Part shown: in pieces, positions 34,463 to 42,598 of the stretch
Position numbering within the stretch: the first letter of the stretch is position 1
Layout of the letters: the number at the start of each line of letters is the position of its first letter
Assembly (NCBI GenBank): GCA_024682595.1
Contig: JAIKZA010000009.1
Span: 1-42,739 of the forward strand
DNA length: 42,739 nucleotides
Direction: 5' to 3'
Source of the DNA: Candidatus Saccharimonadota bacterium
Lineage (GTDB): Bacteria > Patescibacteriota > Saccharimonadia > Saccharimonadales > Saccharimonadaceae
The notes under the pieces: model-generated
Told to the model about the DNA's origin: nothing
The model's input: only the letters and a program-made list of their open reading frames with translations
Databases searched by the model: none
Translations under genes and position numbers: made by a program

Positions 34463-36004
34463 CTAGATGTCAGACAGTGGCTCTATATTTGCATCCAACT
34501 TGCGCAAACGGTTCGCGAAATCCTCGTAGCCACGCGCAATTGAATATACGTTGCGTAAAATTGAAGTGCCAGGTGCGGCAAGCATCGCTAACATAATTAC
34601 TACCGCAGGGCGAAGCGCTGGCGGAGCCATCATTTCTGCAGGGCGCCAATTGGTTGGACCATTCACGAAGATACGATGTGCATCTAAAAGCTCAACTTTT
34701 GCATTTAGGTTAGACAATTCTGTTGAATAAATTGCGCGGTTTTCGAACACCCAGTCATGTATCAATGTCCTACCTTCTGCCGTTGCGGCAATTAAAGAGA
34801 AAAATGGCAAGCTATCAATATTCAAGCCTGGGAAGGGCATTGGATGAATTTTGTCTATTGGCGCTTTAAGGTTGGACTTCTTTAGCTTTATGTCGACTAG
34901 GCGCGTCCTTCCGTTTTCAGCCAAGTATTCATCGCTAATACGCATTTTCTGGCCCATGCTACGCAATACTTCCAATTCAATCTCCAGGAACTCAATTGGC
35001 ACTCGCTTAATCTCTATTTCAGACTTAGTTGCAATTCCCGCCGCAATGAAACTCATCGCTTCGATTGGATCTTCGCCGGGCGCATAGTCTATTTGTTTGC
35101 TAATTTTCTTTACGCCGTGTATTGTAAGGTTTGTTGTGCCGACGCCATCAATTTGTATGCCTAACTTTTGTAGGAAGAAGCATACGTCCTGGACCATATA
35201 GTTTGGGCTAGCTCCTACAATGGTAGTTTTGCCAGGGTATAATGCAGCCGCCATGACGGCGTTTTCGGTAACCGTATCGCCACGCTCCGTTAGTACGATT
35301 TTCTTGTCTTCAATTTTTATATTGCGAACAGTAGCTTCATAAAAACCAGGGTTAACTTTAGCGTCGACGTCTAGCCCAAAATTCTTTAAAGCATGTAAAT
35401 GCGGCTCAACAGTCCTAGAGCCGAGAGAGCAGCCCCCGGCGTACGGCAAGCGAAATTCCTTAAAACGGTGCAATAGTGGCCCCATAAACATAATCACGGT
35501 ACGAGTGCGTCGCGCGGCCTCTATGTCAAGATTTCCTAGGTCAAGCTTTTTTGGTGGAATTATCTCTAAGTCGTGCCCATTGTTTATCCATTCCGTTCGC
35601 ACCCCGATTGACTCGAGCACCTCTATGATACGATAAACCTCCTCGATGTGGGCTAAATGAACTAGAGTCGTCTTCTGCTCATTCAAAAGCGCTGCGCAGA
35701 GCAACCCTACAGCAGCATTCTTAGATGTGTTTATCTCGATTGAACCATGCAATTCCTTGCCACCTTTTATTTGATAGCTTTTTGAAGCGGTATCGTTGAC
35801 GGTAACGATTTGTGTGCGCAGGGCATGGCTAATTTTGCTAATTATTTCAAGTGAGGCGTTCTGTTTTCCATGCTCAATTCTATTAATCGCAGACTGGCTT
35901 GTTCCGATTTTCTCGGCCAATTCAGCCTGAGTCATATTTTGGCGAGTACGAGCAGTTGCAATAATTGCTCCAATTTCAACCATGTAGTCAGCTTGCCTTT
36001 TCAT
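34463..36004 (-). CDS. murA: UDP-N-acetylglucosamine 1-carboxyvinyltransferase (MurA) with N-terminal XRE-family HTH
   Basis: IGAIIATARTRQNMTQAELAEKIGTSQSAINRIEHGKQNASLEIISKISHAL (HTH) followed by IKGGKELHGSIEINTSKNAAVGLLCAALL and RLPYAGGCSLGSRTVEPHLHAL (catalytic Cys loop). Confidence 0.92.
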   Translation of the reverse strand: MKRQADYMVEIGAIIATARTRQNMTQAELAEKIGTSQSAINRIEHGKQNASLEIISKISHALRTQIVTVNDTASKSYQIKGGKELHGSIEINTSKNAAVGLLCAALLNEQKTTLVHLAHIEEVYRIIEVLESIGVRTEWINNGHDLEIIPPKKLDLGNLDIEAARRTRTVIMFMGPLLHRFKEFRLPYAGGCSLGSRTVEPHLHALKNFGLDVDAKVNPGFYEATVRNIKIEDKKIVLTERGDTVTENAVMAAALYPGKTTIVGASPNYMVQDVCFFLQKLGIQIDGVGTTNLTIHGVKKISKQIDYAPGEDPIEAMSFIAAGIATKSEIEIKRVPIEFLEIELEVLRSMGQKMRISDEYLAENGRTRLVDIKLKKSNLKAPIDKIHPMPFPGLNIDSLPFFSLIAATAEGRTLIHDWVFENRAIYSTELSNLNAKVELLDAHRIFVNGPTNWRPAEMMAPPALRPAVVIMLAMLAAPGTSILRNVYSIARGYEDFANRLRKLDANIEPLSDI

Positions 36005-40276: not shown

Positions 40277-40349
40277 CTTATTATCTCACTATTTATCTTA
40301 AATGATATCACAATTGTTATAGATACTGAAAAGGAATAACTGATTATTG

Positions 40350-40823
40350 TCAGAACAGCAAGTCCAACACGCCAAATGATATTGCTAGCATAATAAGTCC
40401 GGCTAGAAGAGTGCCGCAACCTACCGCTATCATGGATTTCTTGAAGTCTAAGTTTAAGAAAGTTGCTGCCAGAGTACCAGTCCAAGCTCCTGTTCCAGGA
40501 AGTGGGATGCCTACAAATAGAAGTAGAGCAATATAAATACTATCTTTAGTTTTTGCTAAAAGTTTTTTGCTACCGTTATTGCCCTTTTTGATGCACCATT
40601 TGCAGAAATTACGAATAGGTTCATATTTAACTTTCGCCCCTTTCTCTAATAACTCACGCCCAAAAGTAAAGATAAATGGCATGGGAATCATATTTCCGAG
40701 CATTGCGGCAAGCAAGGAAAGAAAAACTGGCAAGTTCATACCTGCCGCAATTGGTATTGCGCCACGTAATTCAACAAGTGGGAACATCGCCACTAATGTA
40801 ACTAGGAATAATTTCAGCAACAT
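40350..40823 (-). CDS. small multidrug export-like membrane protein (COG2426-like)
   Basis: PLVELRGAIPIAAGMNLPVFLSLLAAMLGNMIPMPFIFTF, GIPLPGTGAWTGTLAATFLNLDFKKSMIAVGCGTLLAG. Confidence 0.85.
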   Translation of the reverse strand: MLLKLFLVTLVAMFPLVELRGAIPIAAGMNLPVFLSLLAAMLGNMIPMPFIFTFGRELLEKGAKVKYEPIRNFCKWCIKKGNNGSKKLLAKTKDSIYIALLLFVGIPLPGTGAWTGTLAATFLNLDFKKSMIAVGCGTLLAGLIMLAISFGVLDLLF

Positions 40824-40963
40824 AGCTCACCTCAACTTAATATATGATAGCATTTTCCATCTTTATATAAAAATATTGTGTTGTTTTAGCTTTATTTCTG
40901 CTACAATAAAACACAAGTGGAATGTGTGAGTAATTAATGAATCCTTAATTGTTTGGGAGTTAT

Positions 40964-41588
40964 ATGGTTTTCACAAGGGAGGTGAAAACTGGCATTAAGA
41001 GGATACTCACAATATTAATTACGTTAGCCATACTTAGCTTATTGGCTACCAGTTTTATCGTTAATGCGGTTTTCGCACAGACTGGAATGGATATTCCGGT
41101 CGAAATTTCTTGGTCTGACCAGAGTGCTACCACCCGTCCAAGCAGCGTGACGCTACGCTTGATGAATGGCAACGCTACCGTGTCAACATTAACCCCTCAC
41201 TTCGGCTAATCTCGATCCGTCAGATAGCAATAAGTGGGTTGGGGTTTTTGATGACGTCCCATATAACGCGAATTACGCAATCGTAGAGGATTCAGTTTCA
41301 GATTACTTCGATCAACATAAAACCGGCAAACTCTACACTGAAGATGGCGTATATAATTTAGAAATATCAGACTTTTCTGTCGTAGATATCGATCGCTCCG
41401 GCGTCTATAATCATGAGGGCAGCCGCAATGGTCATAATGCGGACATCGTTAAAGAAATTCGATCCTTCGCCAAGCAGTCTCGAGACTTGAATTATGCTGC
41501 AGACGACAAAATTATAGTCCTGTCTACTTGCGATAAAGATTCGAAGCATTATCGTAATGTGCTACTCGCGAAAATGGTAAAAAAGTAA
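40964..41588 (+). pseudogene. frameshifted chimera: signal peptide + Cna_B domain + C-terminal part of a class B sortase
   Basis: Frame 1 ...MDIPVEISWSDQSATTRPSSVTLRLMNGNATVSTLT then shifted frame from 41196 LTSANLDPSDSNKWVGVFDDVPYNANYAIVEDSVSDYFDQHKTGKLYTEDGVYNLEI...KIIVLSTCDKDSKHYRNVLLAKMVKK*; C run at 41193-41196. Confidence 0.75.
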
Positions 41589-41693
41589 CATCATGTTGAT
41601 ACATTGACACAAGTGCCTGGTGTGTCATAATAATAAACGGTTAAAGCCGATGTTTTTGTAATTTTCGAAAAAGTACATTAAAAAGGAGGGGAT

Positions 41694-42539
41694 ATGGTAA
41701 AGAAAGCGATTGATTTTGTTGGGTTTGGCGCTGGCGCTATTTCAGACGAGCTAGCTGAACGGATAAAACGTATATTTCGCTCAAACCAGGAAATGATATG
41801 GGTAGCGCGCCGTGCGGCCTACGCAATCTTGGAAGGCAATGTTTCTATCGACGACACTACGATGGACGTTGTGGGGCTGATGTACCAACTGGGGTATATC
41901 AGGAAGGACTTAGATCTTTCCACTTTCGCAATCAACCGAGTTTACAAGGCATTGCTAGGCAAGAGAGCTAAAACGATGATTCCTGCGCGCGTGCACGATT
42001 TCTACACAGAAACCAACGGCATCGACCGTTTCCGCTTGGCGAATATTCGGTATGAAACATTTATGCCTCAGGACGGAGACTGGAGCAAAAAAGTAATCGA
42101 CTCTATCAAAGAGTTGTTCGACGATCAGTTTCCAGCAGAGCAGCCCATGGTCTATGATGCTGTCAATCTGCGTTTTGGGCTCGAAGAAGAGAGTGGGCGT
42201 ACGTATAAACAGGTGTCGGCGATGCTTCATATTTCAGAGAGTACAGCAAAAAGCAAGGTTAGGCGCGGCCTGGAGGCTATTAACCGTTCTGGCATAATGT
42301 GGGGAACTATGCCTAACGGGGCCTTCGCTGTGGCGCCTCTCTCTATTACGCTCAAATCGAACATCGATGATATTTGCCTGACTACGCCCGCGTATTACAG
42401 CCTAAAGAAGCTCAGAATTAATACAATCGGCGATGCTCTTGAGGCTCTAAAGGGCAGAGGTAGGATTCGAGGTATCAGTGATGTGGCTAATCGTGAGCTC
42501 GAACAAAAGCTTATTCGTGCCGGTTTCGAACTAAAATAA
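41694..42539 (+). CDS. putative transcription factor with sigma-70 region 4-like HTH and RNAP alpha-CTD-like domain
   Basis: VNLRFGLEEESGRTYKQVSAMLHISESTAKSKVRRGLEAI (region 4-like) and LKSNIDDICLTTPAYYSLKKLRINTIGDALEALKGRGRIRGISDVANRELEQKLIRAGFEL (alpha-CTD-like); strong SD AAGGAGGGG. Confidence 0.75.
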   Translation: MVKKAIDFVGFGAGAISDELAERIKRIFRSNQEMIWVARRAAYAILEGNVSIDDTTMDVVGLMYQLGYIRKDLDLSTFAINRVYKALLGKRAKTMIPARVHDFYTETNGIDRFRLANIRYETFMPQDGDWSKKVIDSIKELFDDQFPAEQPMVYDAVNLRFGLEEESGRTYKQVSAMLHISESTAKSKVRRGLEAINRSGIMWGTMPNGAFAVAPLSITLKSNIDDICLTTPAYYSLKKLRINTIGDALEALKGRGRIRGISDVANRELEQKLIRAGFELK

Positions 42540-42570: not shown

Positions 42571-42598
42571 AGCCCCCGGCTTTTTGGGTCGGGGGCTT
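42571..42598 (+). terminator. GC-rich hairpin, probable terminator
   Basis: AGCCCCCGgctttttgggtCGGGGGCTT after the regulator gene. Confidence 0.55.

Follow-up and report, generated by a model that had tools for sequence, protein, structure and literature searches.

The window analyzed here, the whole stretch of 42,739 nucleotides, comes from a rumen Saccharibacteria genome of 1.04 Mb in 77 contigs. Near its end, an ORF on the plus strand (41694–42539) with an ATG start encodes a protein of 281 aa, as described in the first-pass annotation. A ribosome-binding site, AGGAGG, was present just upstream of the ORF (41684–41689, plus strand), and a promoter-like sequence, TTGACA-N16-CATAAT, in which a TG precedes the second hexamer, matched 11 of 12 consensus positions (41604–41631, plus strand). 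Because chance alone would produce approximately 3.5 sites as good as this one in the scanned region, the match is not proof of a promoter. An inverted repeat read from the sequence, TGACACA-N9-TGTGTCA (41605–41627), lies across the promoter spacer and is a possible operator; it was kept only partly in the ortholog from genome G036. After the gene, a GC-rich hairpin (AGCCCCCG...CGGGGGCT; 42571–42597, plus strand) was read from the sequence as a possible terminator, and it was absent from the output of the terminator scan.

The closest named relative of the gene was found in the Saccharibacteria MAG Tb.RUG.403, with 86% identity. The dN/dS value of the gene against its 86% ortholog in G036 was 0.20, indicating a selected gene under purifying selection, and values of 0.23–0.27 were obtained in three other comparisons. 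Contig 50 of the same genome encodes a paralogue sharing 36% identity. Contig 29 of this genome also carries a second region-4-type protein (L028:1441–2472, plus strand; 343 aa, 50.6 bits) with no obvious sigma region 2.

The first-pass annotation had proposed a sigma-70 region 4 helix-turn-helix (HTH) in the middle of the protein and an RNA polymerase (RNAP) alpha-CTD at its C terminus. The HTH, at residues 150–200 (42141–42293, plus strand), matched Pfam Sigma70_r4 (PF04545) with an E-value of 1.9e-5 and 24.5 bits, which is marginal alone against the cut-off of 24.1. The same model was matched by 18 of 24 family members at E ≤ 1, with a best value of 1.2e-11, and the HTH thus did not fall into a non-sigma family. 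For the C-terminal domain, at residues 218–281 (42345–42536, plus strand), the window protein scored only 12.9 bits against RNA_pol_A_CTD (PF03118; E 0.094), and the alpha-CTD claim is unproven from the single sequence because this score is below the cut-off of 23.8. Both domains were matched at E ≤ 0.001 in 9 of the 10 relatives scanned, and seven of these (L044, L051, L057, L059, L064, L045, and L055) exceeded the curated cut-offs for both; the two E-values were 2.7e-23 and 1.2e-11 in L044 and 2.2e-20 and 9.2e-16 in L051. Furthermore, a C-domain profile of the window clade matched alpha-CTD with an hhalign probability of 98.4% over 62 columns (P 6e-15), whereas the best of 60 column-shuffled controls reached 1.8%; in these profile comparisons, segments and alignments were picked after the family had been seen, and the E-values refer to single comparisons. 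The relatives above cut-off and the clade profile together make the C-terminal alpha-CTD identity secure. Both domains were found in a single chain in the window protein, in its relatives, and in virus contigs.

We considered whether these matches could reflect chance resemblance, that is, a generic HTH joined to a generic helix-hairpin-helix domain, as the subthreshold alpha-CTD score of the window protein itself might suggest. However, the relatives scored far above the cut-off, the profile match of 98.4% stood against at most 1.8% for shuffled columns, and the family C-domain profile matched the helix-hairpin-helix proteins RuvA and LigA at 0.3% and 16.3%, respectively, compared with 98.4–99.4% for alpha-CTD. 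These results refute chance resemblance, whose probability we regard as negligible, and the C terminus did not prove to belong to a generic helix-hairpin-helix family. Kinship at the level of the helix-hairpin-helix superfamily remains, because the LigA profile matches alpha-CTD itself at 77–78%.

The N terminus, left unassigned in the first-pass annotation, is not blank but forms a further domain (residues 1–78; 41694–41927, plus strand). Its family-wide profile matched alpha-CTD with hhalign probabilities of 95.5–96.5%, compared with no more than 7% for shuffled controls. A generic helix-hairpin-helix identity was rejected for this domain as for the C-terminal one, given the low matches to RuvA (0.1%) and LigA (5.4%). 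The N-domain of the window subgroup alone matched alpha-CTD at 0.8%, and it was related to that of the core family group at 99.5% (hhalign). An AlphaFold model of residues 1–78 (pLDDT 85.9) gave no alpha-CTD match and no informative hit in a Foldseek search of the PDB. Because the profile matches and the structure search does not, we call the N-domain remotely alpha-CTD-like by profile, unconfirmed by structure. It is followed by a helical connector at residues 79–148 (41928–42137, plus strand), in which N117, Y120, and E121 are conserved. The best description of the architecture is an alpha-CTD-like domain, helices, a sigma-4-like HTH, and a second alpha-CTD-like domain. The number of alpha-CTD units varied elsewhere: a family member at L055:1201–2325 (minus strand) carries two tandem alpha-CTD domains behind the sigma-4 HTH, and a 438-aa protein adjoining a family member (L142:4553–5869, plus strand) seems to consist of several alpha-CTD-like units. 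The portion of this latter ORF contained in L055 gave a weak alpha-CTD match of 25.4 bits.

The full 281-aa protein was modeled with AlphaFold2 (pLDDT 87.8, pTM 0.72) and searched with Foldseek. The model matched the alpha-CTD chains 9dvt_A, 7vpd_S, 1doq, and 3k4g_B with probabilities of 0.99–1.00 and TM-scores by target length of 0.59–0.75, the output being silent on which query domain each chain was aligned to. It also matched the sigmaA region 4 chain 8cwr_B with a probability of 0.96. All Foldseek E-values for this three-domain query were above 0.1. A PDB sequence search with the window protein returned only spurious Bcl-2 matches (E ≥ 0.49).

Another candidate function is an alternative, possibly minimal, sigma factor guiding core RNAP to a promoter set of its own; the first-pass annotation had listed an alternative sigma-like factor among its suggestions. 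The Sigma70_r4 match is compatible with this, as is a weak match to an ECF-sigma model over residues 27–197 (E 0.0016). However, the NCBIfam ECF score was 18.1 against a cut-off of 42.9, the N-domain resembled alpha-CTD by profile and not region 2, and the Foldseek alignments to whole sigma factors, with rmsd values of approximately 14–28 Å, indicate no common arrangement. No region 2 model was found for the window protein in Pfam at E-values up to 10, and region 4 was the sole sigma model that reached the Pfam cut-offs in the proteins scanned. The failure to find a sigma region 2 makes it very unlikely that the protein is a sigma factor.

The DNA-contact residues of both modules were compared, with residue numbers following Escherichia coli. 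Sigma-4 R584, E585, R588, and Q589 are replaced in the window copy by E, S, K, and S, and at alpha-CTD R265, N268, C269, G296, K298, and S299, its C-domain has P, Y, S, S, V, and A. The equivalents of R265, N268, G296, and K298 were gone from both of its alpha-CTD-like domains. With most canonical residues missing, contacts with the −35 and UP elements cannot be taken for granted in this copy; it is doubtful whether it binds DNA in either of the known ways, and in the window lineage DNA specificity looks changed or lost. L044 and L057 and the phage members L162, L163, L164, and L167 retain all four sigma-4 residues as well as R265, N268, and C269, with K298 replaced by R in L162 and L163. L051 and L160 depart from the contact set only at Q589, and L160 also at K298, and some relatives retain R265, N268, C269, G296, and K298 of alpha-CTD. 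Because several relatives and phage members keep these residues, the fusion class looks DNA-binding.

The loss of DNA-contact residues from both modules of the window copy, with the folds kept, is consistent with a competitive mimic that would bind RNAP or sigma, but no specific DNA sequence, and dampen the housekeeping holoenzyme. The sigma-4-like HTH of such a mimic would contact the beta flap and its alpha-CTD-like arms would contact sigma or activators, in a way comparable to the anti-sigma and appropriation factors T4 AsiA and gp33. This is the main rival of a promoter-docking regulator, and we consider it unlikely but by no means negligible. Against it, the contact sets are kept in L044 and L057, in L051 except for Q589, and in phage L162–L164 and L167, so that the family as a whole seems built to bind DNA, and the HTH fold is not degraded.

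Among the matches listed, at least approximately 20 of the 295 genomes of the window's GTDB family gave a match covering the N-domain and the sigma-4 region, whereas none of 104 genomes outside this family, sampled at the order level, gave a match reaching into the N-domain. On this sampling, the fusion family is confined within Saccharibacteria to the GTDB family of the window, where its distribution is patchy. The window protein had no match in the plasmid and phage records searched, and no such record matched L051 over 80% of its length. A search of virus contigs with a sigma-4 and alpha-CTD alignment retrieved 18 relatives. L160, L162–L164, L167, and L169 had both domains above the Pfam cut-offs, whereas L168 had alpha-CTD alone. 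L162 and L163 add a Cro/C1 HTH to the pair, and L190 and L191, both originating from human faeces, have an N-terminal HTH judged by eye to be MerR-like. L059 combines sigma-4 and alpha-CTD with a weak HTH_3 match. Among three gut phage records (H24, H25, and H28), L066 and L067 showed RpoD-type proteins of the ordinary kind, and L068 yielded nothing usable.

The patchy distribution, the paralogues, and the virus fusions raise the question of whether the gene is a mobile-element- or phage-derived gene without a present host role, either domesticated or decaying cargo. A gene fragment elsewhere in G036 (L024:7567–7771, 89%) also favors this. However, dN/dS was 0.20–0.27 in all four comparisons, and the Saccharibacteria family itself was found in no virus contig, virus record, or plasmid record searched, leaving cargo an improbable explanation. 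The fragment, at a separate locus, comprises a piece of the 3′ end of the window gene together with the downstream hairpin, which suggests duplication and decay, or recombination.

Compared with known systems, the C-domain of the window protein shares, by profile and model, the fold of the RNAP alpha subunit C-terminal domain, but the protein lacks the alpha N-terminal assembly domain (no Pfam match) and the UP-element contact residues; the genome's own RpoA is encoded elsewhere (G000 C19). Like sigma-70, the window protein and most relatives contain a region-4-like HTH, but regions 1–3 were not found in the window protein, and its recognition helix lacks R584, E585, and Q589. Region-4-only phage factors, namely minimal sigma and T4 gp33, are likewise small proteins resting on a sigma-4-type HTH, but the proteins described here carry between one and three alpha-CTD-like domains in addition. 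Both phage factors are reported to interact with the beta subunit of RNAP (PMC7824862), and a search of that review found no mention of an alpha-CTD fusion. The uncharacterized virus-contig fusions (L160, L162–L164, L167, L169, L190, and L191) have the same order, a sigma-4-type HTH followed by alpha-CTD, but they lack the Saccharibacteria-type N-domain, their contact residues are mostly intact, and in some of them a Cro/C1- or MerR-like module precedes the pair, unlike the window protein. No description of a sigma-4 and alpha-CTD fusion was found in the open-access literature searched, which is not evidence of absence.

With a probability of about one half, the protein is a transcription regulator made from duplicated RNAP promoter-recognition modules that docks at promoters; its domain make-up, family, selection, neighborhood, and residue losses were observed, whereas we infer its binding, its direction of regulation, and its targets. 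This is the most economical reading because no region 2 was found and the folds are intact. Two alpha-CTD-like domains would flank the sigma region-4-like HTH, all derived from RNAP modules. The regulator would act at the upstream edge of the promoter, the likeliest site since no core-binding or promoter-melting sigma part was recognizable, with the HTH placed on DNA or the RNAP flap and the alpha-CTD-like domains serving as arms that contact DNA or RNAP. As a result, the housekeeping holoenzyme would be helped or blocked at particular promoters. Where the −35 and UP contact residues are retained, relatives probably recognize DNA resembling ordinary promoters, whereas the window copy probably reads another sequence or mainly makes protein contacts. 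The joining of the sigma-4 and alpha-CTD pair to a Cro/C1 HTH in L162 and L163 and, by a weak match, in L059, and to a MerR-like HTH in L190 and L191, points to modular use as regulators. A broader proposal, which we put forward only tentatively, is that fused sigma-4/alpha-CTD proteins are portable promoter readers common to Saccharibacteria and gut phages, often with an interchangeable targeting domain in front, that capture or displace RNAP at selected promoters, and that the lineage-specific Saccharibacteria expansion, with an extra alpha-CTD-derived arm, regulates surface genes. If so, reuse of the promoter-reading parts of RNAP, paralleled by fusions of the same kind in gut viruses, would provide a simple way of making new regulators, and the family would offer a defined set of proteins for testing what sigma-4 and alpha-CTD do outside RNAP.

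The genomes of host-dependent Saccharibacteria are small, and little is known about how these bacteria regulate their surface genes. For the promoter-docking regulator, variable surface genes would be likely targets, including the sortase/pilin operon bordered by the window gene or a paralogue. In L017, L018, and L019, a family gene adjoins a cluster of sortase, signal peptidase, and pilin-like genes, and the domain scan of the L018 cluster identified sortase, signal peptidase, DUF7601, and a Cna_B adhesin. The window carries a remnant of this operon (40949–41588, plus strand; blastn to L018), in which the start of a Cna_B adhesin runs directly into the final part of a class-B-like sortase; window positions 40301–41322 and 41300–41679 matched L018 stretches approximately 3.5 kb apart, and the remnant sortase tail was 95% identical. 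The adhesin part contains a frame break, and the remnant may reflect either a genuine deletion or a join made during assembly. In four genomes, a family gene borders the operon or its remnant, but this link is not general, and many family genes sit away from it. Nine sortases, counting the window tail, were at least 66% identical to that of L018, and for five of them (G001 C7, G006, G019, G020, and G041) no strong family member was recorded adjacent. Because the operon is also present where no family gene adjoins it, a regulatory link to the pilus operon is only a hypothesis. Elsewhere in the window, a gene on the minus strand (34463–36004) encodes an EPSP-synthase-family, MurA-like enzyme (EPSP_synthase E 5e-50) with an N-terminal Cro/C1 HTH (HTH_3 E 3e-15), and a similar 513-aa ORF was present at L017:1451–2992.
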